Assembly: GCF_001571385.1 (NCBI RefSeq)
Contig: NZ_BCNW01000001.1
Span: forward strand, 1,736,001-1,800,000
DNA from: Methanofollis ethanolicus
Lineage (GTDB): Archaea; Halobacteriota; Methanomicrobia; Methanomicrobiales; Methanofollaceae
Length of the DNA: 64,000 nucleotides
Reading direction: 5' to 3'
Shown piece after piece: positions 6,636 through 45,496 of this stretch; position 1 is the first letter of the stretch; every line of letters begins with the position of its first letter. The position numbers and the translations under genes were made by a program. The notes below the pieces were generated by a model that was not told where the DNA came from, did no database searches, and was given only the letters and a program-made list of their open reading frames with translations.

Positions 6636-6661
6636 ATGAAAATCGTCGCATTCAACGGGAG
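6636..6661 (+). pseudogene. 26-bp remnant of a flavoprotein gene start
   Basis: These 26 bases are identical to 7507-7532, the first codons (MKIVAFNGS) of the iron-sulfur flavoprotein gene. At 6662 the match stops abruptly and the sequence becomes a protein-kinase fragment on the other strand. This marks a recombination junction in which a second flavoprotein copy lost its body. Confidence 0.7.
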
Positions 6662-10660: not shown

Positions 10661-10733
10661 GAGCGCCCTCTCTCAACCACAGGGGTGAAATAGGCGGTGC
10701 GTTCCATCTATTCCCGACCCTGAGAGTGTAAGC

Positions 10734-12780: not shown

Positions 12781-12891
12781 TTTCAGATGAGAGAATGGCC
12801 CCGGTGACACATTATCGTTTCTGTTGTGCCAGGGAGGGGCGGGCCTTCTCCTCCGCAACAGGTATCAGGGGGCAGCAGGATACTCCCCGGC

Positions 12892-14109: not shown

Positions 14110-14153
14110 AAAAACGACTTCGCCGGATCCGGATCGAGCCGCAAGCATTATTA

Positions 14154-14183
14154 CTAATCCAAATTAGTACTAATCATGATTAG
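14154..14183 (+). promoter_or_regulatory. two CTAAT-N4-ATTAG operator-like sites over a start codon
   Basis: CTAATCCAAATTAG (14154-14167) and CTAATCATGATTAG (14170-14183) lie 16 bases apart, centre to centre. The second is a perfect palindrome whose centre is the ATG start codon at 14176-14178. A dimeric regulator bound here would block both transcription and access to the start. Confidence 0.65.
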
Positions 14184-21831: not shown

Positions 21832-22743
21832 TTAGTTCTCCTCATAACTCTTTACGATGAGAGTCTTGGCCCGTTCCAGGTCGGCATCTGATCGGATGGA
21901 AATCTCCAGATCGCCGGGGGCCCAGTGGCCGATGTTCCGTACATCCCGCGTAAAACCTTCCTCCAGAGGGATGTCGTCGGGGTTGAGACGGAGGTAGAGG
22001 AGCATCAGGTTCGACTGCGGGCGGAGTTCGACACAGGTAAAATTTTTTATCCGCCTGAACGCCGCATACAACTTTGTGACCTTCACCTGGACGTCGTCGC
22101 CCAGAGCGAGGGCAAATGCCTTCAAGGCCTCATAGCGGTCCTTCTGATCAGCATGGGAGAGTTCGAGCGCTTCGCTGAATGTTCTATTCCCTGAGACTTT
22201 TTTCTCGGCTGCGGGGGCGGGGACAGAATCCCCGTTCTGGACCGTGGCATTCACCAGTTCGAGAAGGAGGAGAGATGTGTCGAACTTCCTGTACCTGATC
22301 AACTCCACATTCCTGTTGATCTGCTGGACTGCGTGGATGTCGTACTTCGTGAAGTCGCCGGCAATACAGAGGAGGCGCGGGCCGGTCCAGTCGATGACCT
22401 CGTCGCCCTGCTTCTTGAACGTCTTCAGGTAGAGGAGTTCAAATTCGGCCTTGTGGTCGAGGAGCCAGTCGAGGTAGTAGAGGCCCTGGTTGATGACGTT
22501 CTCGTTGAGCGCCCGTTTGTACTCGATGATGACCGGAAAGCCGTTCTCGTCGATGCCCAGGGTGTCGATCCGGCCGCCGTGTGTCTTTCCGGTGGCGTAC
22601 TCGCTGGCCAGGAAGGTGACGCCAAGGAGAGGGTCGAGGTTCTGCTCCATGTAGGTCTGGAGGGACTTCTCCAGGGCGACGGACGATCCTTTCAACTCCT
22701 CTGCCTGTGGGGTGTCGATGCGAAAGATGCGGGTGTCGCCCAT
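21832..22743 (-). CDS. NucS-like nuclease with C-terminal DUF5655
   Basis: A 303-residue protein. The N-terminal half has a PD-(D/E)XK-type site: GGRIDTLGID (D60) followed by FPVIIEYKR (E74 and K76), as in EndoMS/NucS-like and other restriction-type nucleases. A following helix (NQGLYYLDWLLDHKAEF) is typical of this group. The C-terminal about 110 residues match the DUF5655 domain, with VTKLYAAFRRIKNFTCVELR and a terminal helical part. Such proteins are common in defence islands and may nick or cut DNA. The gene is 4 bases from the EVE gene upstream, so both are made together. Target preference is unknown. Confidence 0.82.
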   Translation of the reverse strand: MGDTRIFRIDTPQAEELKGSSVALEKSLQTYMEQNLDPLLGVTFLASEYATGKTHGGRIDTLGIDENGFPVIIEYKRALNENVINQGLYYLDWLLDHKAEFELLYLKTFKKQGDEVIDWTGPRLLCIAGDFTKYDIHAVQQINRNVELIRYRKFDTSLLLLELVNATVQNGDSVPAPAAEKKVSGNRTFSEALELSHADQKDRYEALKAFALALGDDVQVKVTKLYAAFRRIKNFTCVELRPQSNLMLLYLRLNPDDIPLEEGFTRDVRNIGHWAPGDLEISIRSDADLERAKTLIVKSYEEN

Positions 22744-26135: not shown

Positions 26136-29100
26136 ATGAGCGACAATTCAGTATCCACATTGCAGAAACTGCTCAGGCAGTTGTTTCAAATTAACGAGGA
26201 GACCGCCGATCTTGACTTTGGCATTTACCGTATCATGCACCTGAAAAAGGGCGCCGTTGATGCATTCATTCAGAACGACATTGCACAAATTGCCGATATG
26301 GCGGCCCTGAAGGAGGCTGTGTCATCGCTGGCCCGCGAACTGGGAGTGGATCCAGAATGTGATGAAGCGGAACTAGAACGTGTTCAGCAGGTAAATCCGG
26401 CAAATGCGGAGTTGTTCCGGACGAAGAGGGATCTTCTGCGGCGGGCTGCCGATATTGGTGAGGCAGGACGCAATGATGTCTTTAATCACCTCATCTCCTT
26501 CCTCTCCCGCTACTATGATGAGGGCGACTTCATGCCGCTGCCCCGGGCGTCGTCATCCCGTACATACGCGGTCCCCTACAACGGTGAGGAAGTAATGCTC
26601 TACTGGGCGAACAAGGACCAATATTACATCAAAACAGGAGAGCACTTCCAGAACTTCCTCTTCCGGGTCGGGGAGTACACGGTGCGGTTCAGACTCCGGG
26701 ATGCGGAAACAGAGCAGAACAACACCCGTGACGAGCGGCGCTACTTCATGCTCCATCCCAAATATCCCTTGGAGTATGACGAAAAAGCAAAGACGCTCAC
26801 GATCTGGTTTGAGTACAGGCAGATCAGCACGGAGGAGAACAAGGCCCTTGGTCAGAATGCCCAGGCAAAACTGGTTGAGCAGGCGTACGATGCCATCCGG
26901 ATGTGGGACGGGATTGCATTCACCGGGCTTCAGGCCTCGCTCTGTCAGTCCCCCGCAAAAGGCCAGAAAAGTCTCCTTGAGAGGAAACTGGCGCAGTATG
27001 TACGCCGGAACACCTCGGATTATTTCATCCACAAGAACCTGGGGCCGTTCCTGCGCCAGGAACTGGATTTCTACATCAAGAACGAGATGATGAACCTGGA
27101 TGCCATCGGCACGGGTGCCAAGCCCAACCTCCAGCCGTACGTGGATCGCATCTGGGTCATGAAGTACCTGGCAAACCAGGTCATCGACTTCCTGGCGCAG
27201 ATGGAGAACTTCCAGAAGAAACTGTGGGAGAAGAAGAAGTTCGTGCTCCAGACTGACTACTGCATGACCATCGACCACATCCCGGAGAAGCACTACCCGG
27301 CAATCTGCGCCAACGAGCGGCAGGTGCAGGAGTGGAAGAACCTCTATGGGATCGGAGAAGGGGCGCAGCAGACGCTCGGCGGCGGCAAAATAGACGTGGC
27401 CTTCCTGAAGGGTCACCCTTACCTGATGCTGGATACCGCCTTCTTCGACGCGACCTTCAAGGACCACCTCCTCGAAGACCTGCAGCACCCGGACGGCACG
27501 CCGGTGACGGACCTCGAAGAGGCCATCGGCGGATTGCTGATCAAGTCGGAGAACTGGCAGGCTTTGAACCTCCTGCAGGAGCGGTATAAGGAGCAGGTGA
27601 AGTGCATCTACATTGATCCGCCATATAATACAGGAAATGACGGGTTTCTGTACAAGGATAATTACCGGCATTCGAGCTGGTTGAGTATGATAAAGGACAG
27701 AATTCTTTGCTCGATGGGTTTTTTATCGGATGATGGTTCTTTCTTCTCTAGTATTGATGATAATGAGGCAGATCTATACGAAGTTCTTTTAAAGGAAATA
27801 TATTCCCCTACAAATTTTTTAGCTACACTTGTTTGGCAAAAAAGATACTCTCCTCCACCAGATACGAGTAATTTTGGTTATATGCATGAGTTAATCTTCG
27901 CATTTCGTTCAAGTGAAAAATTTCAAAGAAATCTGTTACCTCTAACCGAGGAACAAATAGGCAGATACAGAAACCCTGATAATGATCCTAGGGGTCCTTG
28001 GAAGCCCACGGACTACACTTGCCGTTATACCGTGGACGAAAGATCAAACTTAAACTATCCAATAATTAATCCTTATACTCATCAAGAGATTTGGCCCAAT
28101 TACTCGCGTGCTTGGGCGTTTTCACAAGAAGTTCACAAAATAAACGAAAATGAGAATAGAATTTGGTGGGGCTCAGATGGAAGTAATAATGTCCCCTCTC
28201 TTAAGAATTTCTTATCAGAAATTCAGCAGGGTTCAATGCCAACTACAATACTATTTCATGATACCGTTGGCCATACCGATGAAGCTGCGAAAGAATTGAG
28301 GGCATTTTTCCCTAACATTAAGTTTACTGTAAAACCGACGCGGTTAGTTCGCCACCTAATCCAAATCGGAGCTAACAAAGATTCCCTGATTCAAGACTTC
28401 TTTGCCGGCTCAGGCACCACCGCCCACGCCGTGCTCAACATGAACAAGGAGGACGACGGCACCCGAAAGTACATCCTCGTGGAGATGGCTGACTACTTCG
28501 ACACCGTCATGAAACCCCGCATCGAAAAGGTCGCCTACTCCTCCAACTGGAAAGGCGGCAAGCCGCAGGACACCGACGGCCAGAGTCACATGTTCAAGTA
28601 CCTCACACTGGAGAGTTACGAGGACACCCTCAACAACATTGAGTTCTCCGCTCGTGACTCGGTCCAGAAGAGCCTCTTTGATCTGGACGGCTACTTCCTC
28701 CGTTACATGCTCGACGTGGAGAGCCGGGAGAGCCTATGCCGCATGAACCACAGCACACTGGACCGCCCCTTCGACTACACCCTGGCCCGGAAGACCGCCA
28801 GCCAGGATAACATTGCCCGGATGCCCGTGGACCTGGTGGAGACCTTCAACTACCTCCTCGGCATCCACGTCACCACGCTGCGGACCGAGTACAACGGCGA
28901 GATCAAATACCGCGTTGTCACCGGCGAAAAGGCCAGTGAAAACGGCATGGAAACCTACCTCATCATCTGGCGGACCACTGCGGGGTGGGGCGCAGCTGAG
29001 CTGGCATCCGACCGCACATTCGTGACCGAGAAGATTATGGCAGGCCGTGAATTCGACCACATCCACATGAACGACCGTTTCACTGTGGCGAAGGCCAAGA

Positions 29101-29165
29101 AGATTGAGGACTCATTCCACCGGCTCATGGAGGGAGACTGGGATGCCATCCGACCTGCTGCGTGA
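26136..29165 (+). CDS. mod: Type III-like DNA adenine methyltransferase (Mod)
   Basis: A 1009-residue site-specific N6-adenine methyltransferase. Motif order is that of beta-class enzymes: catalytic DPPYNTGNDG at about residue 493, then the AdoMet motif DFFAGSGTTAHAV at about 753. The segment between them is the target recognition domain. It is unusually A+T-rich and differs sharply from both flanks, suggesting a swapped recognition domain. The long N-terminal region (about 450 residues) is typical of large Mod proteins in archaea. The partner Res gene starts inside its last codons (23-base overlap). Methylation would protect host sites from Res; the sequence recognised cannot be read. Confidence 0.92.
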   Translation: MSDNSVSTLQKLLRQLFQINEETADLDFGIYRIMHLKKGAVDAFIQNDIAQIADMAALKEAVSSLARELGVDPECDEAELERVQQVNPANAELFRTKRDLLRRAADIGEAGRNDVFNHLISFLSRYYDEGDFMPLPRASSSRTYAVPYNGEEVMLYWANKDQYYIKTGEHFQNFLFRVGEYTVRFRLRDAETEQNNTRDERRYFMLHPKYPLEYDEKAKTLTIWFEYRQISTEENKALGQNAQAKLVEQAYDAIRMWDGIAFTGLQASLCQSPAKGQKSLLERKLAQYVRRNTSDYFIHKNLGPFLRQELDFYIKNEMMNLDAIGTGAKPNLQPYVDRIWVMKYLANQVIDFLAQMENFQKKLWEKKKFVLQTDYCMTIDHIPEKHYPAICANERQVQEWKNLYGIGEGAQQTLGGGKIDVAFLKGHPYLMLDTAFFDATFKDHLLEDLQHPDGTPVTDLEEAIGGLLIKSENWQALNLLQERYKEQVKCIYIDPPYNTGNDGFLYKDNYRHSSWLSMIKDRILCSMGFLSDDGSFFSSIDDNEADLYEVLLKEIYSPTNFLATLVWQKRYSPPPDTSNFGYMHELIFAFRSSEKFQRNLLPLTEEQIGRYRNPDNDPRGPWKPTDYTCRYTVDERSNLNYPIINPYTHQEIWPNYSRAWAFSQEVHKINENENRIWWGSDGSNNVPSLKNFLSEIQQGSMPTTILFHDTVGHTDEAAKELRAFFPNIKFTVKPTRLVRHLIQIGANKDSLIQDFFAGSGTTAHAVLNMNKEDDGTRKYILVEMADYFDTVMKPRIEKVAYSSNWKGGKPQDTDGQSHMFKYLTLESYEDTLNNIEFSARDSVQKSLFDLDGYFLRYMLDVESRESLCRMNHSTLDRPFDYTLARKTASQDNIARMPVDLVETFNYLLGIHVTTLRTEYNGEIKYRVVTGEKASENGMETYLIIWRTTAGWGAAELASDRTFVTEKIMAGREFDHIHMNDRFTVAKAKKIEDSFHRLMEGDWDAIRPAA

Positions 29166-32100
29166 TAACGTCGTCCTCGGCTCCTTCATGCACCATCTCC
29201 TCGGGGCTGACTCCTTTGAGACCATCCAGGGTCGTCTCCGTGAAGTCAGGGAGGGATTCGACGAAGAGGACCGCAGTTACTACGCCCAGAACATTGCCAC
29301 CTGGGAGGGCGGGGATCCCCGTATCCTTTGCAAACTGCGGGAATACGACGAGCACATCCTCTCGTACGTGCGCCACATCAACACCAAGCGCACCGGCACC
29401 ATGCCCATCACGCTGAAGTACTTCCAGTACCTTGCCATCCTGTACACCGAGATCTACCTCGATCGCTACTTCAATGACCGTAAGAACCAGATCGCAGAAC
29501 TCAATCGGTTTGCACTGAAACACTATGGATCCAAATTCACCTACACCCCCACCGATTTTAGAAAGATCGCCTACTGGATGGCCACCGGCAGCGGCAAGAC
29601 CCTCATCCTCCACATCAACATCCTCCAGTGGCTCCACTACAACCGGGGCCCAGATGCCATCCCGATTGACAAAATCCTCCTCATCACCACCAGTGAATCA
29701 CTCTCGGCCCAGCATCTGGACGAGATGAAGAAGAGCGGCATTCCCGCGGAAATGTATCAAACCGGCTACTTTGCAGGCATGCTGAGCCCAGAGACCGTGC
29801 ACATCATCGACATCAACAAACTCTACGATCAGGAGAAAGAACGCGAAAACACTAGGAATAAACTGGAGCCCAGAAACCCAAAGAACAAGGGATCGAGTGG
29901 TGGGGGCGTTCGGGTGGATGTCAGGACCATCGGGAGCCACAACCTCATCCTCGTCGACGAAGGCCATGTTGGATCAAGTGGGAAAGTTTGGCGGGAACTC
30001 CGCGATAAGGTGAGCGAGAACGGCTTCACCTTCGAGTACAGCGCCACATTCGGGCAGGCCATCAGAAAAAAAGGAGGTAACATCGATAAGGATCTTCTCC
30101 GCACCTACGGCCGTGCCATCATCTTCAACTACTCCTATCCCTATTTCTATGGCGATTACTTTGGGAAGGACTTCCGTCTTCTCAATCTGGAGCGATCCGG
30201 GGACACCCCCTTCACCTCCGAGTTCAAGCACCTTGTTCTCCTCGCCAACCTCCTCACCTTCTACGAGCAGCGCCTCATCTACGACACATACCCCGACGAG
30301 GTGGCAGAGTACAACCTGGACGCACCTCTCTGGATCTTTGTGGGGCGCACCGTCCAGTTAAGTACTGCTCTCAACGAAAACATCCAGAACACCTCCGACA
30401 TCCTTGAAGTACTCCGCTTCCTCCATGCCGTGCTGGCAAATGAGGGCAACCGCATTGTGGAGACCATGGCCGCCATCCTTGACGGCAGGTCCGGACTCGT
30501 CGACCAGAAACTCAACCGGGATCTCTTTGCACGCAACTACCCCGAAACCCGCCTCGCCTATCTGCGGGAGCGCATGGAAAAGGATGACTGTACTGCCGAG
30601 GACATCTACAAGGACATACTCTCCAGACTCTTCCACACCTCCACCACTGGTTCTCTCCAGATCGCCGACATAAAAAAAGCCCGCGGCGAGATAGGCCTCC
30701 GCTGCGCTACCTCATCGGGTAACCCTGCAGTCAGTCCCTACTTCGGTATCATCAATATTGGGGACACGGCAACATTCCTTGACGCAGTCCAGGCCGAAAT
30801 CCCAGAAATCCAGAGGCAGGACGACGAATTCACGCCGTCTCTCTTTACCTCCGTGGCGTACAGGGACTCCCCCACCAATGTCCTCATCGGCGCAAAAAAA
30901 TTCTCAACCGGCTGGAATTCCTATCGCGTCAGCTGCATGGGACTCATCAACGTCGGCCAGAATGCAGGGACCGAAATCGTCCAGACCTTTGGGAGAGGCG
31001 TCCGTCTGCGGGGTAAGAACTTCTCACTCAAGAGAAGTGCTGGCAGCGGCGATGTGGTGCCATCATATATTCCCGCCCTCGAAACGCTCCATGTCTTTGG
31101 CATCGGCGCTGACTACATGGAGATATTCAAGACCGAAATGGGAGAGGATCTCCCACCGGAACCGAAAAAATGGACAATCCCAACCACCCCGTCCCGAAAG
31201 TATCTGGAATACAAACTCCTGATCCCCCGCTTCAGCGAGGCCCAGTTCATTTCCCGGCGGGTAATTACCCCGGACCCCAGTGGACCTCGCTCCACCGTTC
31301 AGGTGGACCTTGACCTCAGGCCCCAGGTCGAGACCTACCAGAGGACCACACAGGGAACCGGGATCGGAGATCAGACCCTGACCCTCCCCATTCATATCAA
31401 ACCAGAATATCTTGACATGCTGAACTGGACCCGGATTTACTTTGAGCTCATGGACTACCGGAATGAACGCGGCTGGTACAACATGGTCTTCGGGGAGGAC
31501 ACGCTCAGGGCCATCATGGATGCAAAGCCATACACACTCATCTGCCCTGCAGCCCAGATCACACCACGGTCCTATGAAGACCTCTGGAAAATCGAGCAGA
31601 TTGTCATCAGCATCCTCAAAAAATATCTCCTGCGGTACTACAACAAGGAAGTCAGTCAGTATGCCAAGGAGACCGTCGATGTCCAGATTCTGGACGCCAA
31701 AAACCGCAACATGACCGTCACCTACACCATTCAGGCCCCATCCACCAACACCGAGTTGATCGCCAACCTTCAACAACTCATCGAAGAGGGCCTGAAGCAG
31801 TTCAACGCCGGGGAAGGAGATGAATTCAACACCGGCCTGAAGAATGTTCATATCGAGCAGCACCTCTACCAGCCCCTCCTTGCCCTAAGCAAGGGCTCGC
31901 CCTTAGTGATTCAACCAACTGGGCTACAAGAGAGCGAGCAGAAATTCATTATGAACCTCCGTACGTATCTGGAGCAGAATCCCCAGATTTTAGATTCCAC
32001 ACACCTGTTTGTGATCCGAAATCGGGTGAAGTCGGGGGTGAAGTTCTTTGAAACGGTGAATTTCTATCCTGATTTCATTATTTGGGCAGTATGTGGTAAA

Positions 32101-32424
32101 ACTCAGCACCTCCTCTTCGTGGATCCGCACGGCCTCGGTAGAATCAACAGTTTCAAAGAAGAAAAAATTGAACTGTCAACAACAATCAAAACGGATTATG
32201 AACCACGGATCCAGGAACGTCTGATGCAGCACAAAGAAATCGAACCCGGAACATCAGTGTATCTTGATTCAGCGATTATTGCCGCACCCGACACACCAAA
32301 GGCGGTGATCAAACAGAATTTTGGTGTATCCAATGATGCTGAATACAACAAAAATCATGTTTTCTTCCCCGAAGATGAAAATTATATCGAGAAATTACTT
32401 GGAATTATTCTGGATACCAACTAA
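29143..32424 (+). CDS. res: Type III-like restriction subunit, DEAD/DEAH helicase (Res)
   Basis: A 1093-residue SF2 helicase subunit. Visible are Walker A MATGSGKTLILH (about residue 145), motif II LVDEGHVGSSG, where DEGH replaces DEAH, and motif VI VQTFGRGVRLRG (about 616). The C-terminal domain has FYPDFIIWAVCGK followed by LLFVDPHGLGR. This occupies the place of the PD-(D/E)XK nuclease but shows D-P-H rather than E-x-K, so the nuclease is atypical or weak. The start is ATG 29143, preceded by GGAGGGAG and overlapping the end of mod; the frame also reads back to 29104. DNA translocation plus cleavage of unmethylated DNA is the expected role. Confidence 0.88.
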   Translation: MPSDLLRDNVVLGSFMHHLLGADSFETIQGRLREVREGFDEEDRSYYAQNIATWEGGDPRILCKLREYDEHILSYVRHINTKRTGTMPITLKYFQYLAILYTEIYLDRYFNDRKNQIAELNRFALKHYGSKFTYTPTDFRKIAYWMATGSGKTLILHINILQWLHYNRGPDAIPIDKILLITTSESLSAQHLDEMKKSGIPAEMYQTGYFAGMLSPETVHIIDINKLYDQEKERENTRNKLEPRNPKNKGSSGGGVRVDVRTIGSHNLILVDEGHVGSSGKVWRELRDKVSENGFTFEYSATFGQAIRKKGGNIDKDLLRTYGRAIIFNYSYPYFYGDYFGKDFRLLNLERSGDTPFTSEFKHLVLLANLLTFYEQRLIYDTYPDEVAEYNLDAPLWIFVGRTVQLSTALNENIQNTSDILEVLRFLHAVLANEGNRIVETMAAILDGRSGLVDQKLNRDLFARNYPETRLAYLRERMEKDDCTAEDIYKDILSRLFHTSTTGSLQIADIKKARGEIGLRCATSSGNPAVSPYFGIINIGDTATFLDAVQAEIPEIQRQDDEFTPSLFTSVAYRDSPTNVLIGAKKFSTGWNSYRVSCMGLINVGQNAGTEIVQTFGRGVRLRGKNFSLKRSAGSGDVVPSYIPALETLHVFGIGADYMEIFKTEMGEDLPPEPKKWTIPTTPSRKYLEYKLLIPRFSEAQFISRRVITPDPSGPRSTVQVDLDLRPQVETYQRTTQGTGIGDQTLTLPIHIKPEYLDMLNWTRIYFELMDYRNERGWYNMVFGEDTLRAIMDAKPYTLICPAAQITPRSYEDLWKIEQIVISILKKYLLRYYNKEVSQYAKETVDVQILDAKNRNMTVTYTIQAPSTNTELIANLQQLIEEGLKQFNAGEGDEFNTGLKNVHIEQHLYQPLLALSKGSPLVIQPTGLQESEQKFIMNLRTYLEQNPQILDSTHLFVIRNRVKSGVKFFETVNFYPDFIIWAVCGKTQHLLFVDPHGLGRINSFKEEKIELSTTIKTDYEPRIQERLMQHKEIEPGTSVYLDSAIIAAPDTPKAVIKQNFGVSNDAEYNKNHVFFPEDENYIEKLLGIILDTN

Positions 32425-32786
32425 AAACATAGACCACCAAATTTTTTCTGTGCGACTATAATGGGAACCCACAAAATTGCCTGAACTGCTCCATTTTGTG
32501 AAAAAAGTTCATTCTGTTTATATTCTCTTCACGCTGAGATCCAATGTCATTGTAAACATCACATTTCAAGTAGCCATGCGGACCATCCCCGAGGAGGACC
32601 ACCAGCGGATCACATCAGTCCACAGGTAACCCAGCACAAAATCAAAAATTTTATTTTCCGAGATGGAATCGTGACATTAATTGCAACTGCCTCTAATGAC
32701 GTGGCATAAATATTTCTTATATTTGCCCCAATTAGAAGAATATATATGTAATGGCATTTAATTCCCCTTTCATCTGGTGAAATGGA
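32425..32786. promoter_or_regulatory. A+T-rich spacer with promoter of the dam-herA-nurA unit
   Basis: These 362 bases hold no gene that I can support. Near the end, GAATATATATG (about 32739-32749) is a strong TATA candidate 38-48 bases before ATG 32787. GGTGA (32777-32781) is a modest ribosome-binding site. The spacer implies that the second three-gene unit is transcribed separately from uvrD-mod-res. Confidence 0.5.
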
Positions 32787-33668
32787 ATGGATGTCGAATG
32801 CGTCCCTCAAACAGTTTCAAATCTACATCAAGAGACCTACAACCCCAATTCTGAGAAGGCCACACCTGTACTGAGATACCCGGGCGGGAAACAACGGCAG
32901 GTATTATATTTTGATCATCTTCTTCCGGATGCTGACTCCATCTCCGGCAGGTATGTGGAACCCTTTGTCGGAGGTGGTGCAATCTTCTTCCACACAAACC
33001 CGCGGGTCGCCGTTCTTTCAGATAAAAACCCAGAACTCATCGACCTCTATATCGGTATCCGTGATCATCCCGAAACCGTATGGGAACTCTATCGTACTTT
33101 CCCCGACACAAAACAGGGATATTATGCAGTCCGAGATCGTTCCGTTGATGAACTGACCTTACCGCAACGGGCGGCAAGGACCCTGTACCTGAACAGGACC
33201 TGCTTCAAGGGGATGTGGCGGCATAACGCGCAGGGCAAGTTCAACGTGGGATATGGAGGTCAGGACCGCCGGTGGGTGATATCAAAAGAGCGGTTATTTG
33301 AAGTCTCCCTCCACCTTTCGCGGTCCACTCTCTGTTGTAGCGACTTCGAACCCATAATCGACTCATGCAGCGCCGGCGATTTTCTGTTCCTCGACCCCCC
33401 CTATCGACCCGGAGAAAGGGACCTGCTCAACGATCACTACACCTTCGGCACGTTTCGATACGACGACCAGATCAGGCTGGCTCAGGCTCTTCACCGCGCA
33501 TCAGAACGCGGCGTGCAATGGCTCATGACCAACTCCTCACACGAGGACATAACCAGACTGTATGAAGACTGTCAGTGCATTTCTCTCCTGAAAGGGACCG
33601 GAAAAATCCCCGGGCACCTTGCAGAACACACGGAAGAAGTGGTCATAATGAACACGGAGACAGATTAA
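32787..33668 (+). CDS. D12-class DNA adenine methyltransferase (Dam-like)
   Basis: A 293-residue alpha-class N6-adenine methyltransferase of the D12 (Dam/DpnM) family. Near the N-terminus is the AdoMet-binding start VLRYPGGKQRQ, then the FxGxG region GRYVEPFVGGGAIFF. A family-typical TLYLNRTCFKGMWR segment follows, then the catalytic motif FLDPPYRPGERD. The stop is directly followed by the herA ATG with no spacing, so the three genes dam-herA-nurA are translated as one unit. In this context it probably methylates host DNA to set it apart from targets of HerA-NurA, or gates the neighbouring system; both are inference. The recognition sequence is not predictable. Confidence 0.9.
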   Translation: MDVECVPQTVSNLHQETYNPNSEKATPVLRYPGGKQRQVLYFDHLLPDADSISGRYVEPFVGGGAIFFHTNPRVAVLSDKNPELIDLYIGIRDHPETVWELYRTFPDTKQGYYAVRDRSVDELTLPQRAARTLYLNRTCFKGMWRHNAQGKFNVGYGGQDRRWVISKERLFEVSLHLSRSTLCCSDFEPIIDSCSAGDFLFLDPPYRPGERDLLNDHYTFGTFRYDDQIRLAQALHRASERGVQWLMTNSSHEDITRLYEDCQCISLLKGTGKIPGHLAEHTEEVVIMNTETD

Positions 33669-35666
33669 ATGGGAATTAACAGCTTATGTGGCGATGCACC
33701 ACTGGACAACAACCCCATCCAGTGCTTTAAGGAATTCATGGAGCAGCAAACGGGATATAAAAAGGCCCGAGAATACAAGAAATGGCGGTTTGTGGGATAT
33801 GTACTCGAACTCGGATATTCCTCTGCCACCATTATCACCTCAGATCCCTACAAAATTGCTGTCGGCGGCATACCCAGAAACTCCCTGCTCATCATGGTCC
33901 CCCGCAACTACACCGAACTCCCCCTCCATTTCACACTCCTTCGTGTCCTTGAGTCGGCCCCCACCCCCCTGAGCAGGGAAGTCCAGCAGACCTACTTTGA
34001 GTTGCAAAAGCGGTCCATGCCTGAACTCGACGTCTTTACCCAGAGCGAACTGCAGTGGGGCGCTCTCAAAACCGAAGTTCTTGGCATGTTCTACCCGAAC
34101 CCGGATAATCTGGAAAAAATTGAGTTCTCATCTGACATCAACAACTTCGTCAGCGCCCACAAATATGAGTTATATGCGCCAACTGACGAGGTTCTGCATG
34201 TTATCATCAACTCCATGGTCCCCTCTGAAAACTGTTTCCCCATTGGAAAACTTAGACTCACCGAGTGCCGCCTCCCCGTCCCCGGAACACCCTCACCAGA
34301 TGTTGAAGCCCATGTATCCACCCTTGACTTCATGGGTACACGGACGGCCATGTTCGGGAAAACCCGTCTTGGCAAGAGTAACACCATTAAAATCATTGCT
34401 CAGAGTCTCATCGAAACAACGCAGGAATCCAAGAGCGTGGGTCAGATCATCTTTGACATCAACGGAGAGTATGCAAACGACAATCCCCAGGATGGAAGTA
34501 CATCCCTGAAGAGTGTGTATACAGAGCGGTGTGAGGTGTACTCATTCAATCCCCGTCCCAATAGTGGTGCAAAGGTACTGAAGATAAACTTCTATGAGCA
34601 CCCGGATCGATCTCACCAGATTCTGGATAATCTCCTGGAGAAAGACGGGCAAAATTCTAACTATATCAAAGGGTTCAGAACCACAGAAATACCCTCCATC
34701 GAATCCCTTGAGGTAATTACAGACAGAGGAGACAAAAAACGGGCACAAAGGCGGATTCTTCTCTACTGGGCAATCCTACATAGTGCAGGATTCAAGGCAG
34801 ATGAAGAGGCGCTTAATCATAAGCTCAAAAAAATTAGTCACACTGCATCAAGCTCCTTTGATCCGCAGTATAATAAAGAATTGCGAGAGGCAGTATACAA
34901 ATCAGATAATCCACCAAAGATTGAGACATTGGATGATCTTGTCACCGAACTCGAAAAAATCCAGGAATATATCAAAGGAACAAAACAGGATGATCCCTTA
35001 CTCAAGTCATCAGGCAGTGGAAAAACCCTCTTCGACAGCGAAGACCGTGCATTACTCAATTTCTTAAAACCAAATGTGGGATCAGGACCGCGCGTCATCT
35101 ACTCATATAAGTTCTATCATGATGCCAATGCCGGGAACATCTTCAAGGATATCATCGAGGAGGTCGACAACGGAAAAACGATCATTCTTGACCTTGGAAA
35201 TGCCGATCCACGCGTCATGACCTATTACTCCGATGAACTCAGCTGGGAGGTCTTCAGGCACCAGACAGAAAAATTCACAACAAACGCATTGGGAGAGCAC
35301 TATGTCCAGCTCTACTTCGAGGAAGCGCACAACCTCTTCCCCCAAAACGATGATGTGACGACAATATACTCCCGTCTTGCCAAAGAAGGAGCGAAATACC
35401 ATATCGGCATGGTCTACTCCACTCAGTCCCCCAGCACAATCAACAAAGACCTCCTTGCACAAACAGAGAATTTCTTCATCGCCCACATGTCCTCCCGCGA
35501 TGAAGTGAAAACACTTGCGAAACTGAATGTTGCCTATGAAAACCTGCAGGAGGATATTCTCCAGACAAAAACACCGGGTTATGTGCGCATGTTAACCCGT
35601 TCACACCGTTTTGTTGTGCCTGTCCAGGTCCGGAAATTCTCTCCGATCTCACGCAAGGGGGCATAA
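33669..35666 (+). CDS. HerA-like hexameric DNA translocase (DUF87)
   Basis: A 665-residue ATPase of the HerA/FtsK superfamily. An N-terminal beta-rich domain precedes Walker A MFGKTRLGKSNTIK at about residue 229. Walker B is YFEEAHNLFPQND at about 547, and the sensor strand VYSTQSPSTINKDLL follows. Between them lies a long helical insertion, more A+T-rich than the rest. HerA hexamers pump duplex DNA and feed it to NurA; the classic pair resects DNA ends in archaeal repair. Here, in a defence island and next to a D12 methylase, the pair more likely acts in immunity. Its start is contiguous with the dam stop and the NurA gene begins 5 bases after its own stop. Confidence 0.9.
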   Translation: MGINSLCGDAPLDNNPIQCFKEFMEQQTGYKKAREYKKWRFVGYVLELGYSSATIITSDPYKIAVGGIPRNSLLIMVPRNYTELPLHFTLLRVLESAPTPLSREVQQTYFELQKRSMPELDVFTQSELQWGALKTEVLGMFYPNPDNLEKIEFSSDINNFVSAHKYELYAPTDEVLHVIINSMVPSENCFPIGKLRLTECRLPVPGTPSPDVEAHVSTLDFMGTRTAMFGKTRLGKSNTIKIIAQSLIETTQESKSVGQIIFDINGEYANDNPQDGSTSLKSVYTERCEVYSFNPRPNSGAKVLKINFYEHPDRSHQILDNLLEKDGQNSNYIKGFRTTEIPSIESLEVITDRGDKKRAQRRILLYWAILHSAGFKADEEALNHKLKKISHTASSSFDPQYNKELREAVYKSDNPPKIETLDDLVTELEKIQEYIKGTKQDDPLLKSSGSGKTLFDSEDRALLNFLKPNVGSGPRVIYSYKFYHDANAGNIFKDIIEEVDNGKTIILDLGNADPRVMTYYSDELSWEVFRHQTEKFTTNALGEHYVQLYFEEAHNLFPQNDDVTTIYSRLAKEGAKYHIGMVYSTQSPSTINKDLLAQTENFFIAHMSSRDEVKTLAKLNVAYENLQEDILQTKTPGYVRMLTRSHRFVVPVQVRKFSPISRKGA

Positions 35667-35671
35667 GCACT

Positions 35672-36997
35672 ATGCCATATCAGGGTGGATCTCGGTTACC
35701 GGGGGAACATTCAAGCAGGACCGCTCATCTGGAGGTACTCCAGAGTCCTCTGGTGAAGATGTTAGTAGAGAGTTTTAAAAAACCGACTGCATCAGAGGAA
35801 TACAGAGATCCGGGTTGGGTCACACTGCCAGAAGGGGGTAAACCCCTCAAGTACATTTTTGGCGTGGACGGTTCGTATCAGACCGTACGCTCGGACACAT
35901 CGCCGTATTCATCAATTGGTTTCGTGAAGACCGCCCTCATGAAGTTGGACACGCACGCTCTTTCAAAACTGGATAAAGAAAACCCCCATCCTCTTATGGT
36001 TCAGGATATTCTCCAGGATTCTGTGGTGTATCATGCAACCGCATTTCCCCTCCAGAATGTCTGGGTTCCCGGCATGAACAATTATCACGCAATTCGGAAG
36101 ATCGTGTACGAATCCATCAAAGACAAGTCGTCCCATATGGAGGGCGAGGTCATGGAGACCTTCAAATGGATAGTATACGAAAAGTGGAGCGGAAAAAAGA
36201 AGGAACTACCCGTTTTTCAATGTCCCCATTGTCATCAAAATGTTGCCACTCTTCCCTATGATAGTGAAAAGGGTTTTTGTGAGAATTGCAAGAATGAAAT
36301 CTATATTACCGACATGCTCGGTTTTCATCTGGACATGGGGGACGACACCGCCCCGGAAGGTATACCTTCCACATATATGACCATTCATGAAACTCTGCTG
36401 TTGTTCACAGCAATACACTACTTTTGGGAACACCAGCGAAACCTCATTTCACAGTGTCTTTTTGTGAAGGATGGGCCTCTTTCTGTTCGTGCCCAGTACT
36501 CCAAACTTGTGGAGCCCATTCGGAGGTTCCTGGCATATGCCCGGGATCAGGGGTATCCTGTGCACATAATTGGGCAGGAAAAGTCAGGAACTTTTTTTGA
36601 CCATCTCAAGTTCATTGAAAGAGATGCTCCTGCAAATTCAATGTTCCTTCCCCAAGACCACTACATAAAAGGACAGATTCAGCATCGCCCTCTCGATGGA
36701 GCGGAATATGGGAAGGACACAAATTATGGTGCCAAGGTGTTCCTAAAAATTGATGACTACACTACCATGGTATTGAATGTGCCCTTTGGCGATTTTACGG
36801 CAAATCCTCACCCTGAAGACCTCATCGGATTGAAAAATATTGTTGCAACAATACCTCAGATCATCAGTTACCGACATGAAGGGGGGTTGATTCCCATAGA
36901 ACTTGCACATGGAGTCGTGTCTCTGTCAACCTACCCCTCAGCTCGCATTCTCAAGTTGTTCACCGATTCGTGTCAGAACGGGACTGGGTCGTCATGA
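35672..36997 (+). CDS. NurA-domain nuclease with zinc-ribbon insert
   Basis: A 441-residue NurA-family nuclease. The first catalytic segment reads IFGVDGSYQTVR (VDGS near residue 65) and the second is CLFVKDGPLSVR (near 264), both matching the NurA metal-binding acids. Between them lies a CPHC...CENC zinc-ribbon insertion (about residues 184-210), not present in minimal NurA proteins. NurA forms a dimer on top of the HerA hexamer and cuts DNA as it is pumped. The gene closes the dam-herA-nurA unit. The zinc insert may serve dimerisation or contact with the methylase. After it the sequence returns toward chromosomal composition. Confidence 0.87.
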   Translation: MPYQGGSRLPGEHSSRTAHLEVLQSPLVKMLVESFKKPTASEEYRDPGWVTLPEGGKPLKYIFGVDGSYQTVRSDTSPYSSIGFVKTALMKLDTHALSKLDKENPHPLMVQDILQDSVVYHATAFPLQNVWVPGMNNYHAIRKIVYESIKDKSSHMEGEVMETFKWIVYEKWSGKKKELPVFQCPHCHQNVATLPYDSEKGFCENCKNEIYITDMLGFHLDMGDDTAPEGIPSTYMTIHETLLLFTAIHYFWEHQRNLISQCLFVKDGPLSVRAQYSKLVEPIRRFLAYARDQGYPVHIIGQEKSGTFFDHLKFIERDAPANSMFLPQDHYIKGQIQHRPLDGAEYGKDTNYGAKVFLKIDDYTTMVLNVPFGDFTANPHPEDLIGLKNIVATIPQIISYRHEGGLIPIELAHGVVSLSTYPSARILKLFTDSCQNGTGSS

Positions 36998-37743: not shown

Positions 37744-38334
37744 ATGACCCCCACAACACCCCTCAAAAACCTTCTCATCGGGGGAAAAATCCTCCGCGGC
37801 GCCCACACAGGGAAACCCACCTCAGAGAGCGACCCCCTGTACCCGGTGGTGGGCATCAGGGCGCTGGCTGAGGACGGCACCGTCGACCACGACAACGTCG
37901 AGCACCTCGCGGTCAGGAACGAGACTGACATCGAGCGTTCCCGCATCCAAGCAGGCGACGTCCTCCTCTCGATGCGGGGGCAGTTCCGCGCAGCCCTTGC
38001 CGACGAAAAGTGCGAGGGCCATATCCTCTCCCAGAACCTCGTCATCCTCAGGTTCAGGGAGGAGGCCGACGCAGCCCTGATGGTCGAGTACTTCAACAGC
38101 CAGCAGGGGAGGGACGCCCTCGCCGCCCTCTCCCGCGGGACGGCGCTGCCCCTCCTCTCCATCATGGCCCTGGAGACGCTGGAGGTCCCGGCCCTCGGCG
38201 GAGCAGACCGGGAAGACCTGGCCGCGTGCCTGGCCGCATACCGGGAGTACGAGGCCCTCGCACACGAGGAGGCGGAGCTGACAGCGCAGATCAGAGACGC
38301 ACTGGTCGCGGAGTACCTGGGGGTGCGGCAGTGA
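37744..38334 (+). CDS. single-TRD Type I specificity-like protein
   Basis: A 196-residue protein resembling half of a Type I HsdS subunit: one target recognition domain followed by a helical spacer. Typical elements include YPVVGIRALAEDG, IQAGDVLLSMRGQFRAAL and EGHILSQNLVILRF, ending with the helical EELTAQIRDALV-like tail. Half-size S subunits act as dimers and recognise symmetric sites. The gene overlaps the next one as GTGA, so the products are made together. No HsdR gene is found in the cluster. It may guide the methyltransferase-like partner to DNA without modifying it. A TATA-like CTACTATAC lies about 30 bases upstream of the start. Confidence 0.8.
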   Translation: MTPTTPLKNLLIGGKILRGAHTGKPTSESDPLYPVVGIRALAEDGTVDHDNVEHLAVRNETDIERSRIQAGDVLLSMRGQFRAALADEKCEGHILSQNLVILRFREEADAALMVEYFNSQQGRDALAALSRGTALPLLSIMALETLEVPALGGADREDLAACLAAYREYEALAHEEAELTAQIRDALVAEYLGVRQ

Positions 38335-39713
38335 CCGACCTTGAGTCCCGGGCGTTCAGAGAGAGCGTATTTCATATCGTCTCCCTGCTCCAGAGCGACC
38401 TCGACGCACGAGACCACCCGAAGGCCCTCACCAGTCTCCTCGCCCTCAAACGCGCGGCAGACCTGAGGGCCGCAGGCGACCTCACCGGCTTTCTTGCCTG
38501 CGCCCCGGTCTGGGACGAGATACGCACCGCACAGAGTCCGGGGGAAGCGTTGACCGCGGCATATTCCCGTCTGGAAGAGGCACACCCCGGTGGAGAGACC
38601 TGGTTCGACGCCCTGATATTCAGCCCGAAGAGGGACAGTCTCTGGAGGGAGGTCGCCGCCATCATCTCGGAGTTCTCATTCCAGGACACCGACCCCGGGG
38701 CCTTCTCCGAGATGCTCCTCCAGTTCTACCGCGAGGGCCCCGGCTCCTTCGAGACCCCGCACGACCTTGCCCGCCTCCTCGCCGGCCTGCTGGCGCCGGA
38801 GAGAGGGGCGTCCGTCCTCGACCCCTTCTGTCAGGACGGGACGGTCCTGACCGAGGCGGCCAGAGAGCACGGGACGAGAGGCATCACCCTCTACGCCCAG
38901 ACCCCGAACGACCACAGCAGGCTGGTCACGGCCCTCAACCTCCTCGTGCACAACTGCCCTGACGTGCACATCGCCACCGGCGACCCCATCCTGACGCCAT
39001 CGTTCGTGCAGGACGACCGGCGCCTCACGCTCTTCGACCGGGTCGTCGGCACCGTCCCCGCGGGTGCCATGGACTGGGGGTCTGAGGTCCTGCAGCACGA
39101 CCCCTATGTCAGGTTCATCTACGGCGTCCCGCCGCGGACGAGCAGGGACTTTGCGTACCTCAGCCACGCCATCGCCTCCCTTGCCGACGGCGGGAGGCTG
39201 GTGGCCGTCGTCCCGGCGGGCATCCTCTTCAGGAGCGCGAGGACGGAGAAAAAGATCCGGGCGAACATCATCCACAAAGACCGCGTCGAGGCGGTCATCG
39301 CCCTGCCGCCCCGGATCTTCCCCGCGACGGCGGTGCCGTTCGCGGTCCTCGTCATCGCCACGGGCAAGGCGGCGGAGAGGCAGGGCAGGACGGTCTTCAT
39401 CGACGCAACCGGGTTGTTCCTGGCGGGGAGGGGGCGGAACATCCTCAGAGACGAGGACATCACGACAGTCCTTGACGCCTACACCTCCTTCAAAGAGATC
39501 GAGGGCTTCAGCGCCGTGGCGACCACCGACGAGATCGCGGAGAACGACTTCACCCTGGAGGTCTCGCGCTACGTCCTCCCCGTGGAGGAGAAGGTCGAAA
39601 AAATCGACCTCGACGCCACCCTCGCAGACCTCGACGAGGTCAGGAGAAAGAAGGCGGAGGCCCTCGACCGTTTCCTGGCGAGCGTCGCACGCCTGAAGGA
39701 GACGCGGAGATAG
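38331..39713 (+). CDS. HsdM-like N6-methyltransferase lacking the NPPF motif
   Basis: A 460-residue protein with the HsdM architecture: helical N-domain, Rossmann-type domain, helical tail. The AdoMet motif is present in changed form, VLDPFCQDGTVLTEA (about residue 161). The catalytic motif IV, normally NPPF after a strand like FDVVLA, here reads FDRVVGTVPAGAMDWG. Asn and both Pro are not conserved, so adenine methylation is unlikely. The later VAVVPAGILFRSARTEKKIR and EAVIALPPRIFPATAVPFAV segments are well kept. The start is GTG 38331, overlapping the specificity gene. A catalytically dead M bound to a TRD subunit suggests a DNA-binding sensor; this is inference. Confidence 0.82.
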   Translation: MTDLESRAFRESVFHIVSLLQSDLDARDHPKALTSLLALKRAADLRAAGDLTGFLACAPVWDEIRTAQSPGEALTAAYSRLEEAHPGGETWFDALIFSPKRDSLWREVAAIISEFSFQDTDPGAFSEMLLQFYREGPGSFETPHDLARLLAGLLAPERGASVLDPFCQDGTVLTEAAREHGTRGITLYAQTPNDHSRLVTALNLLVHNCPDVHIATGDPILTPSFVQDDRRLTLFDRVVGTVPAGAMDWGSEVLQHDPYVRFIYGVPPRTSRDFAYLSHAIASLADGGRLVAVVPAGILFRSARTEKKIRANIIHKDRVEAVIALPPRIFPATAVPFAVLVIATGKAAERQGRTVFIDATGLFLAGRGRNILRDEDITTVLDAYTSFKEIEGFSAVATTDEIAENDFTLEVSRYVLPVEEKVEKIDLDATLADLDEVRRKKAEALDRFLASVARLKETRR

Positions 39714-42155: not shown

Positions 42156-43250
42156 ATGCACGACCTCATCAGGGCTATCCTCCTCCGGCATAAAAACAAG
42201 GGGATCACCCTCGGCGATCTGGACACCCTCCTCAAAGGCGATGGGATCAATCTCTTCGCCGACACCGAGAGGCAGAAGCAGTTCATCGACACAGTCAGGG
42301 ACCTCATCCAGGCGGGCGTGCTCGTCCCCCTCAAGAGCGCACGGCCGCTCACCGGGTACGGGGGGCTCCCCGACAGGTACACCATCAGGCAGAACCTGCT
42401 CGCAGAGAAGGAAACACCTCTCTCCGCGGAGCACAAAAACGAACTCATCTCCCTCCCCCGCCCGATGTCCATCGATTACTATGCAAAACATGCAGACGAC
42501 TATCGCAGGGACAGGGAAGCCGTCCTCAGGATCAGGGACCTGATCGAAGGAGGCGGCGACGAGGTGCTGACCGTCAACGAACGCTCCTACGAGATCTTCG
42601 GCGACGAGAAGGCGATCGATGAACCCCGGCACGCAGCAGTCGACGGCGAGGCCGTGCTCAGGAACCTCGGCCTGACACTCGCAGACATCAGGGCGAAAAA
42701 GGTGTTTGAACCCTTCTTCTACATTGAGAAGGGCTTCGGCACACAGCAGGGGAAAACAAAGAGGACAGTCCTGATCGTCGAGAACAAGGACACCTTCTGG
42801 ACCCTGCAGCAGGCGGTGACCGCAGGAGAGTTCGACGGCATCACCCTCATCATCTACGGGGAGGGGAACGCGATCCAGAAAAAATTCGAGTACATCGAAA
42901 CCGTCGGCGGGACGCGGGACGACCTCTATTTCTACTTCGGGGACATCGACAGGGAGGGCATCGCCATCTTCAACCGCTTGCAGGAACGCTACCCCGACTA
43001 CGGCATCAGGCCTGCCACCTCCCTCTACACCGCTGTCCTGAAGAAGGCGGGATACCGGAATGCTCACCCTCTCAGGAAAGACCAGAAGAGAGGCCAGTTC
43101 TCGTTCTCCCCCTTCATCGACGCATTTGACGACGAGAGCAGGGCGGCGATCGAGTGGATCATCAACAAAGGGAGATATCTCCCGCAGGAGGTCCTCACCG
43201 CCGTCGACCTCAGGAGGATGAAGGCCCTTGGACTATCAGAGACATTGTAA
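42156..43250 (+). CDS. jetD: Wadjet nuclease subunit JetD
   Basis: A 364-residue protein of the JetD family (DUF3322/DUF2220 group). After an N-terminal arm with winged-helix character comes the TOPRIM-related catalytic core. The acids are visible in VLIVENKDTF (E near residue 208) and YFYFGDIDREGIAIF (DID near 267). In studied Wadjet complexes JetD cuts circular plasmid DNA after loop extrusion by JetABC. Here jetD is the first gene, preceding jetA, whose start lies within its last codons. The ATG at 42156 has no strong ribosome-binding site. The operon is codirectional with the defence genes upstream, 162 bases after the CHAT-like gene. Confidence 0.9.
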   Translation: MHDLIRAILLRHKNKGITLGDLDTLLKGDGINLFADTERQKQFIDTVRDLIQAGVLVPLKSARPLTGYGGLPDRYTIRQNLLAEKETPLSAEHKNELISLPRPMSIDYYAKHADDYRRDREAVLRIRDLIEGGGDEVLTVNERSYEIFGDEKAIDEPRHAAVDGEAVLRNLGLTLADIRAKKVFEPFFYIEKGFGTQQGKTKRTVLIVENKDTFWTLQQAVTAGEFDGITLIIYGEGNAIQKKFEYIETVGGTRDDLYFYFGDIDREGIAIFNRLQERYPDYGIRPATSLYTAVLKKAGYRNAHPLRKDQKRGQFSFSPFIDAFDDESRAAIEWIINKGRYLPQEVLTAVDLRRMKALGLSETL

Positions 43251-44757
43251 AGATATCAACGAACGCATGGAGCACCTGGTGTGCTTCTATCCTTTTTTTA
43301 AGGCCTATGCCCAGAAGAGGGACTATGACGCACCCTCCCTCGCCCTTGGCGTGCTGACATTTCTCATCGAAAAAGGCCGTCTCCAGGGCCGCACCGTCAG
43401 GCCCGACGAGGTTAGGGAATACATCGAAGGAATGATGAAAGAGATGTACCCCGGGCAGACATTCGACTACCAGGAGGTGACACGGACAGTGCTTGGCGAC
43501 CTTGAGACCACCCCCGGTGGCGAACTCTACCGCTTCCAGTACCGCGACCCGGTCAGAAAACAGCAGGTCAACCGCTATGTCCACCTCGTCGAGTACACCG
43601 TGAGCGAGGGCGCCTACCAGATCACCGACGCCGGTCTCGAGTTCATGATCACCATCAAGGAACTCCCCGAAGAGTCCAGGGTCACGGTCGCCCTCATCCT
43701 CTTCAAAAAGCAGATCGAGAGCGGGTCCTTCAGGAACGCCCTGGAGACGGTGAGGAACCTCAACCTCGAAGTCTACCGGAAAAAGGGAAAAAGACAGGCC
43801 CTGATCGACAGCATGATCTACGGCGACCCCGGCGTCGTGGAGATATACACCGCTTACACGAGGGACGTCATCTCCCAGCTTGAGCAGGAAGAGGAACTCT
43901 TCCGCCAGGTCCAGAAAACCCTCCAGGAGATCGCAGGGGACACAAAGAGGATCACCGATCACTCCCGTTCCCTGGGTGACGAAGAGGACTTCATCACCAT
44001 CAAGGAACTCGAAGATGAACTGTACCGCGGCTACAGTCTCCATAACAAACTCCTCGAAGACTACACCACGATCCCCGCGGAGTATGAACGGATCTCGAAG
44101 ATCAGGCTACACTCCCTCTTTGACCGCCGTTACCAGTTCCAGAAAAACCTTGAAAACCACATCCAGGCCAACCTCCCCAATGAGGTACATGTGGTGGAGA
44201 TGCTCCCCCTCCTCCTCCCTGACCCGGGGAAAACATTCAGTCTCTGCAAACTCTTCGAGCCGCAGACTATCATCGGGAAAAAGGCAGAGGTTGCGGAGAC
44301 ACGGGTGAAAGAAGAGTGGGGCAATGCAAAAAAATCGCCCGACGAGATCATGCACGATAGGCAGGTGACGGCCTTCACCGCCTATGCGTCCGTGCTCCTC
44401 GACGCCCTCCGGGACGGCGGACGCCTTGACCTGCCCGGGTTCCTGGACCTGGTCCTGGCACGGTACGGGGACGAGGGAATGGACCACATCGACCTGATCC
44501 CCTTCCTGATCGAGTTGAACAAGGGCGTGCGGCAGGACGAAAAAGAAGCGTACGAGACTGTCTTCGACCTCCACGCACCAGAAGAACGGCAGGGCGTGAT
44601 CGAGAAGGCCCTGGTCTCTGCTGCGACCGAAAAGAAGGCCGGGATCGACACGATCCGGGTCAGGTCCAGGCCCGAGATCCGGGTGCCGCTCACCGATGAG
44701 AGAGACGTGTACGTCTCGTACCTTGACTTTATGGGAGAACGACAGAATGAAGTTTGA
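43228..44757 (+). CDS. jetA: Wadjet kleisin-like subunit JetA
   Basis: A 509-residue protein matching the JetA family formerly called DUF5716. JetA acts as kleisin bridging the two JetC ATPase heads. The N-terminal helical part (FYPFFKAYAQKRDYDAPSLA) and a long central coiled-coil region (QLEQEEELFRQVQKTLQEIA) fit. The start is most likely TTG 43228, preceded by AGGAGGATG and overlapping jetD by 23 bases; ATG 43267 is an alternative with no ribosome-binding site. The end overlaps jetB by 11 bases. The DUF5716/DUF6063 combination separates this system from type I Wadjet (DUF3375/DUF4194); the exact subtype number I leave open. Confidence 0.87.
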   Translation: MDYQRHCKDINERMEHLVCFYPFFKAYAQKRDYDAPSLALGVLTFLIEKGRLQGRTVRPDEVREYIEGMMKEMYPGQTFDYQEVTRTVLGDLETTPGGELYRFQYRDPVRKQQVNRYVHLVEYTVSEGAYQITDAGLEFMITIKELPEESRVTVALILFKKQIESGSFRNALETVRNLNLEVYRKKGKRQALIDSMIYGDPGVVEIYTAYTRDVISQLEQEEELFRQVQKTLQEIAGDTKRITDHSRSLGDEEDFITIKELEDELYRGYSLHNKLLEDYTTIPAEYERISKIRLHSLFDRRYQFQKNLENHIQANLPNEVHVVEMLPLLLPDPGKTFSLCKLFEPQTIIGKKAEVAETRVKEEWGNAKKSPDEIMHDRQVTAFTAYASVLLDALRDGGRLDLPGFLDLVLARYGDEGMDHIDLIPFLIELNKGVRQDEKEAYETVFDLHAPEERQGVIEKALVSAATEKKAGIDTIRVRSRPEIRVPLTDERDVYVSYLDFMGERQNEV

Positions 44758-45496
44758 CGAAGAAAATCTCGGGGTCGCCCTTGAGATCTTCTCTTCCATC
44801 CTGAAGAACGGGTCGGTCACACGCACTGACCACCCCCGCGAATTTTTACGGTACGACCAGGAGGTCGAGGTGAGGGAGGCGCTGGAAATCTGTGCAAGAA
44901 AGCAGGGACTGGTCCTGTGCAGGTACCACGATGCCTTCTATCTCAGCCCCGGCATAAACAACCCGGTCTTCGGCCTCTCGAACACCGAGATCAAGCAGGC
45001 CCTGGGGATCGGGTTCAACAACCCCGAGATGTACACGGCATTTTTTATCATGCACGTCCTCATCGCCGAGTTTTACCGGGACTCCACCCGCGAACCCTAC
45101 CTGGAGAAAGTGTACACCAACCGTCTCCTTGAGGTGGTCGAGACGAAGATGAAGGCAATGGAAGGGCTCAAAGACCTGGAGAAGACCAGCGAAGGCCACC
45201 AGTTCAACTTCAAAGTGATCGCCGAGACCTGGAACAAACTCCCCCCGGTCGAATTCAGGCCAGACGATCCCGACGAGATCAAACAGCGCGGTATCGGTTC
45301 AAAGAACGCCCTGGTCAACAGCACCATCGCCTTTATGGAGAAAAACCAGCTTGTCAGGGAGAACGACGGGGCGGTCTACCTCACCCCGCGGTGCAAGGCG
45401 ATCATCGCCGGGACATACAGCACCGAGGAGGTCCAGGCCAACGTGCGGGCCTTCATCGAGGGGCTTGGCGAGGCCGGGGAGGAAGACGATGCCTAA
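44747..45496 (+). CDS. jetB: Wadjet KITE-like subunit JetB
   Basis: A 249-residue protein of the DUF6063 family. JetB resembles the MukE/KITE subunits of SMC complexes and carries tandem winged helices. Features include LEICARKQGLVLCRYHDAFY and, in the second half, NALVNSTIAFMEKNQLVREN with DGAVYLTPRCKAII, a typical winged-helix end. The start is ATG 44747 (MKFDEENLG), overlapping the jetA stop; the frame reads further back only inside jetA. Its own stop overlaps the jetC ATG (ATGCCTAA). All four subunits are thus translationally coupled, as expected for an obligate complex. Confidence 0.87.
   Translation: MKFDEENLGVALEIFSSILKNGSVTRTDHPREFLRYDQEVEVREALEICARKQGLVLCRYHDAFYLSPGINNPVFGLSNTEIKQALGIGFNNPEMYTAFFIMHVLIAEFYRDSTREPYLEKVYTNRLLEVVETKMKAMEGLKDLEKTSEGHQFNFKVIAETWNKLPPVEFRPDDPDEIKQRGIGSKNALVNSTIAFMEKNQLVRENDGAVYLTPRCKAIIAGTYSTEEVQANVRAFIEGLGEAGEEDDA

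Follow-up and report, generated by a model that had tools for sequence, protein, structure and literature searches.

A D12 methylase–HerA–NurA cassette in a defence island of Methanofollis ethanolicus: a candidate restriction system guarded by DNA methylation

The three genes and their surroundings

We analyzed a stretch of 64,000 nucleotides from Methanofollis ethanolicus (contig NZ_BCNW01000001.1, positions 1,736,001 to 1,800,000), hereafter the window. The initial annotation had described contiguous D12 methylase, herA, and nurA genes. The open reading frames (ORFs) were found exactly so, on one strand, with intergenic gaps of 0 and 5 bases. The cassette genes, their motifs, and their neighbors are listed in Table 1.

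Table 1. Cassette genes, motifs, and neighboring features (positions in the window)
Feature	Position	Strand	Details
Candidate defence family PDC-S27 match	14176-15543	+	5e-36
Candidate defence family PDC-S18 match	21832-22743	-	5e-137
UvrD-like helicase	23327-26125		Upstream, beside type III genes
Type III methyltransferase	26136-29165		Upstream
Type III restriction gene	29104-32424		Upstream
AT-rich gap, type III res gene to cassette	32425..32786	+	Possible promoter region; TATA-like stretch at ~32708-32724
D12-class (Dam-like) N6-adenine DNA methyltransferase	32787..33668	+	293 aa; Pfam MethyltransfD12, E 9.9e-39; proposed self-mark enzyme
Methylase motif IV DPPY	33393..33404	+	D203, P204, P205, Y206, each in 75/75 sequences
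HerA/FtsK-family DNA translocase, TdpA-like	33669..35666	+	665 aa; Pfam DUF87/HerA, E 3.8e-11
HerA Walker A GKTRLGKSN, residues 230-238	34356..34382	+	K236, S237, N238 in 75/75
HerA Walker B acidic pair E551, E552	35319..35324	+	75/75 sequences
NurA-fold (RNase H-like) nuclease, TdpB-like	35672..36997	+	441 aa; AlphaFold model; proposed effector
Zinc-ribbon insert of nuclease, residues 184-206, CPxC ... CxxC	36221..36289	+	Cys conservation
Type I specificity-like gene	37744-38334		Downstream
Type I methyltransferase	38010-39713		Downstream
Wadjet type III, complete, order JetD, JetA, JetB, JetC	42156-49886		Downstream

The nearest solved protein to the cassette methylase was DpnM (9.7e-42), whose specificity is GATC. 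The methylase loop around residues 128–162, which we take from Dam structures to be DNA-contacting, occurs in two forms within the family. For this reason, GATC is not claimed here as the methylation site of the cassette.

None of the family models in Pfam, NCBIfam, PADLOC, and PHROGs matched the nuclease at the cut-off. Its AlphaFold model, built from a 64-sequence alignment, had a mean pLDDT of 89 and matched both TdpB and NurA structures, so that its naming as NurA proved right at the level of the fold. Residues D66, E240, D267, and K304 were present in 72/72 sequences. D49 is given as the predicted active-site residue of Thermococcus kodakarensis NurA in the accessible part of PMC12977600; by this comparison and by their position, D66 and D267 are probably catalytic. 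The zinc-ribbon insert noted at first sight was also recovered: Cys184, Cys203, and Cys206 were present in 72/72 NurA sequences and Cys187 in at least 90% of 64. The proposal that the cassette has its own promoter could not be substantiated. The 362-base gap upstream is AT-rich, its TATA-like stretch was recognized by eye only, and a sigma-70 scan, whose scope does not include archaeal promoters, gave 10 sites versus 5.6 (sd 2.8) in shuffled sequences.

The cassette sits in a defence island, with a type III restriction-modification system, type I methylation and specificity genes, and Wadjet around it. No type I restriction subunit was seen among the window ORFs scanned. We compared the flanks of the cassette in 14 hosts with a control of one hand-chosen region per genome. 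At 1e-20, matches to 106 PADLOC families came from the 104 flank ORFs, and matches to 9 from 133 ORFs away from the cassette in the same genomes; these are counts of families, not of genes, and one methylase matches many models. The commonest family in both sets was 'mad3' (3/104 flank and 6/133 control ORFs), whose matches are probably generic ATPases. At one other cassette locus (L017), a type III-like pair, identified by reading, also lies just upstream, and a 1624-aa sacsin-like/NO VEIN protein (9516-14390) directly follows the cassette.

Relation to the resident repair pair and to TdpABC

A single match to PF09376 NurA was found in the genome, at C1:2382101-2382856, away from the cassette; the cassette NurA itself had no PF09376 match. 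This NurA lies in an operon of herA, nurA, rad50, and mre11 (L011 3903-10806), with Pfam matches to Metallophos, SMC_N/SbcC Walker B, NurA, and DUF87. The possibility that the chromosome has no other HerA–NurA, which would make the cassette its housekeeping repair pair, is ruled out by this full mre11-rad50-nurA-herA operon. Beside the cassette there is no mre11-rad50; its neighbors are the restriction-modification and Wadjet genes. Canonical NurA was found in 30/41 genomes (own and relatives) and in 10/12 of the genus, whereas the cassette NurA was found in 2/41 and 1/12, respectively. Among 27 bacterial cassette hosts searched, canonical NurA was found in two, and the cassette NurA, as the positive control, was recovered in 27/27. 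The cassette is independent of a resident repair pair. Both of its proteins share their folds with canonical HerA–NurA, but it lacks the PF09376 match and the adjacent mre11-rad50, and its distribution is that of an accessory element.

By sequence for HerA and by fold for both cassette proteins, the nearest solved relatives are the HerA-like motor and the NurA-like nuclease of TdpABC (PDB 8wet, 8wfd, 8y1k). For the window HerA, the best solved match was TdpA (phmmer 4.3e-26, 94.7 bits), with the next of 10 matches at 38.6 bits. The HerA model matched TdpA with a Foldseek value of 4.4e-31, versus 3.3e-22 for the best non-Tdp chain, and with a Z score of 32.5 versus 29.6. The best match of the NurA model was TdpB (Foldseek 3.5e-9; Z 20.9 over 326 residues, rmsd 5.0, 11% identity), followed by Sulfolobus (Sso) NurA with a Z of 15.4. 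For both models, Z scores were computed only for structures that Foldseek had already matched. In sequence, the similarity between NurA and TdpB by hhalign (probability 4%, E 0.0094) did not reach significance, and a NurA profile search of the PDB found no TdpB. A sequence-level link was consequently dropped, and the link was kept at the level of the fold.

As in TdpABC, the operon is small and its first gene encodes a DNA-marking enzyme. No TdpC-type enzyme is present in the operon, however; its first gene encodes the D12 methyltransferase instead of a DndC-like TdpC, and because the marking enzyme differs, the cassette is not TdpABC. The gene order also differs, being motor then nuclease in the cassette and nuclease then motor in TdpABC. 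Tdp loci were found in Thermaceae (TdpA 1.1e-206, TdpB 4.2e-191), and the first gene of their operon is DndC/PAPS-reductase-like, which we take as TdpC. The same engine thus accompanies a sulfur-mark enzyme in one clade and a methylase in another, the link to TdpB being one of fold only. Phosphorothioates probably keep TdpAB from loading on self DNA, translocating along it, or cleaving it.

Recurrence of the triplet and its wider family

Loci were fetched with a HerA profile alone, the methylase and NurA being outside the query, and the best-scoring 80 of 399 relatives were kept. A D12 methylase, HerA, and NurA were adjacent on one strand in 71/80 loci, with median gaps of 3 and 3 bases in these triplets. 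As the loci were fetched by HerA alone and 71/80 of them repeat the order and the strand, the arrangement is more than chance. The triplet search proposed for archaea thus returned a recurrent cassette, which extends beyond archaea and is mostly bacterial. Among the other nine loci, the contig end cuts before NurA in four and before the methylase in two; in two, both from Heimdallarchaeota (L058, L093), HerA–NurA was present and no D12 methylase was seen; the last, from Halomonas, is described below. Two of the 80 (L022, L044) had apparently already been found by the phylum search.

The cassette taxa include Atribacterota, Bacteroidota, Nitrospirota, Chloroflexota, Bacillota, Pseudomonadota, Actinomycetota, Acidobacteriota, and several archaea. 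The window HerA grouped with a euryarchaeal MAG, its next nearest being Atribacterota and Nitrospirota, a grouping consistent with horizontal transfer. The cassette was found in 6/392 genomes of the host phylum, with the genome of the window itself and a single distant relative included in the count. In Pseudomonadota it was found in 1/398 genomes, which is the search centre itself (0/397 others), and in Bacillota in 12/398, the centre counted and several being only distant or broken. The cassette is patchy, accessory, and rare.

Distance-matrix correlations over 68 sets were 0.74 for methylase and HerA, 0.72 for methylase and NurA, and 0.90 for HerA and NurA, and 0/2000 permutations reached them. 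The three genes therefore appear to coevolve; shared descent alone would also produce such correlations, though the hosts are phylogenetically scattered. Median identity was 41% for the methylase, the lowest, 48% for NurA, and 57% for HerA. The low conservation of the methylase and the two forms of its loop are as would be expected if site specificity changes.

More distant relatives vary the methylase. In a haloarchaeal class, inferred from the relatives of one genome (G195), a distant HerA–NurA pair was found in 6/292 genomes. All six pairs adjoin a PF01555-type methylase, in varied order, with a Pfam check on three such methylases. Among eight loci fetched from Bacillota relatives, seven keep HerA and NurA, and a methylase is near in 7/7: four are D12, two are PF01555-like, and one is a fragment read by motif. 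In the eighth (L156), NurA is broken by an insertion, and HerA and a methylase were not seen. Plasmids of Halorarius and Deferribacter carry HerA–NurA beside PF01555 methylases. On the Deferribacter megaplasmid (L014 4350-6129), an IS200/IS605 element with TnpB lies inside the HerA gene, and the methylase is intact.

Two Vibrio phages carry HerA, NurA, and a D12 methylase as cargo between integrase and excisionase. The two phages (L016, L172) are very similar; HerA is a single gene in one of them and occupies two overlapping frames in its counterpart. Three cyanobacterial plasmids (L013, L015, L173) have an XRE–HerA–NurA arrangement with no adjacent methylase, and on one of them (L013) an AbiTii-like gene follows. 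No relative was found in viral contigs scanned with the cassette NurA profile, and a search of predicted viral structures gave no match at E 1e-3. With D12 or PF01555-type methylases in varied order, the mark enzyme looks swappable.

The zinc-ribbon pattern was present in 71/72 nucleases of the D12 clade, the remaining one being a spaced variant, and in 5/5 distant D12 nucleases, 8/10 nucleases with PF01555 methylases, 2/2 cyanobacterial nucleases, and 1/1 nuclease with a methylase fragment. It was absent from 3/3 TdpB, a further difference from the cassette, and from 1/1 canonical NurA, that of the own genome. Apart from L154 and L155, the ribbon thus follows the methylase branch.

Proposed restriction by HerA–NurA and alternative explanations

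We consider it likely that the cassette is a mobile system of restriction and modification: HerA as a hexamer and NurA as a dimer would form the restriction machine, and the D12 methylase would supply the self-mark. It most likely destroys foreign DNA without the host's mark, and it would in this way restrict DNA and serve in phage defence. The initial annotation had proposed a restriction-like machine, and this proposal is strengthened because of the TdpAB kinship, the defence island, the relative carried as phage cargo, and the defence-rich flanks; restriction itself is what we infer from them. As in restriction-modification systems broadly, a DNA methyltransferase is linked to a nuclease whose predicted active-site residues are conserved. 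A DpnM/Dam-kind methylase in a compact mobile operon is shared with type II restriction-modification. Where type II systems have a classical site-specific endonuclease, the cassette has an ATP-driven translocase together with a NurA-fold nuclease.

A mechanism can be outlined on this basis. The methylase, whose family is established, would methylate adenine at a short site throughout the host DNA. HerA–NurA, with motifs intact, may assemble by homology as TdpAB and canonical HerA–NurA do, with ATP-driven intake of double-stranded DNA. NurA, given its conserved active-site residues, would cut the incoming strands and so destroy DNA that lacks the mark, for instance the genome of a phage. On self DNA, methylated sites would block loading, translocation, or cleavage, and the zinc ribbon could perhaps read them; the ribbon as a reader of the mark is a guess. 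Within this reading, the cassette would be the methylation-guarded counterpart of TdpABC.

Several findings count against it. In five relatives, the three cyanobacterial plasmids and the two Heimdallarchaeota loci, no methylase was seen beside HerA–NurA. The non-significant similarity between NurA and TdpB in sequence and the rarity of the cassette also weigh on this side, as does the resemblance of a Thermaceae locus (L126) to the TdtA operon, which works in DNA donation.

The main rival starts from that resemblance. The cassette might be a module for DNA donation or mobile-element transfer, like TdtA–NurA of ICETh1 in Thermus, with the translocase exporting DNA, NurA preparing it, and the methylase in a side role. 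The TdtA operon unites a NurA-like gene, the HerA-like TdtA, and a PF01555 methylase gene, as the cassette unites its three, and efficient transjugation needs all genes of the operon except the methylase, according to the accessible parts of PMC5365140 and PMC7767461. L126, a HerA with a PF01555-type methylase, exists in Thermaceae and is possibly TdtA-like; no NurA was found on its short contig. However, the ICETh1 operon, as described in those parts, serves DNA donation, includes a IIG enzyme, and has a methylase of minor effect; the likeness to TTC1878-1880 is drawn from the description. Among the window neighbors scanned, neither a type IIG enzyme nor an integrase nor a transfer gene was seen. 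In the D12 clade, moreover, the operon is compact, with three genes, and its methylase is of a different class. The cassette HerA also appears nearer to TdpA than to L126, on long branches that make this placement unsure. We regard DNA donation as unlikely.

It seems more improbable still that HerA–NurA is an accessory pair for end resection or repair, travelling by chance with an orphan methylase. The fold and conserved residues of the nuclease are as in repair NurA. Against this, a dedicated mre11-rad50-nurA-herA operon is present in the same genome and none lies beside the cassette, 25/27 bacterial hosts are without canonical NurA, the methylase linkage is near-universal among the best 80 of 399 relatives, and the flanks are defence-rich. 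It is also improbable, to about the same degree as donation, that the cassette acts by abortive infection or plasmid clearing, with HerA–NurA silent until infection and then degrading host and invader DNA, and with the methylase as a regulator rather than a self-mark. The adjacent Wadjet, which belongs to a plasmid-defence family, would agree with this, as would the HerA fold common to the SIR2-HerA and DUF4297-HerA defence systems. These two systems and DndH resemble the cassette in using a HerA-family motor in defence (PMC10853773, accessible part), but they carry different effectors and gave lower match scores than TdpAB, which is nearer in sequence and fold. No methylase is named in the accessible part of the paper on DUF4297-HerA.

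The restriction reading can be extended to the wider family. An engine of HerA–NurA with interchangeable self-marks (D12 adenine methylation, PF01555 N4/N6 methylation, or TdpC phosphorothioation) might constitute a class of mark-guarded restriction without a sequence-specific endonuclease, in which the NurA zinc ribbon reads the mark in the methylase branch. We put this forward tentatively, with doubts that outweigh our confidence to some extent.

A literature search by titles and the starts of abstracts found no description of a methylase–HerA–NurA defence system, an absence that is not proof. PMC10853773 and PMC12839542 treat HerA capture systems, and the word NurA occurs nowhere in their accessible parts. 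The cassette would work like TdpABC and like restriction-modification, and what is new is the methylase as the marking enzyme. If the restriction reading is true, a compact immune system present in many phyla of bacteria and archaea has escaped notice, since no family model fits its nuclease. HerA–NurA, known mainly for repair, would then be a restriction engine with a swappable self-mark, and by comparing methyl and sulfur marks on the same machine, one could test directly how a translocating nuclease distinguishes self from non-self.

In the Halomonas locus (L045), two genes separate the methylase from HerA. The second of them is DndB-like (5987-7171, PF14072 2e-7), which hints that systems of methylation and of sulfur modification are in contact.
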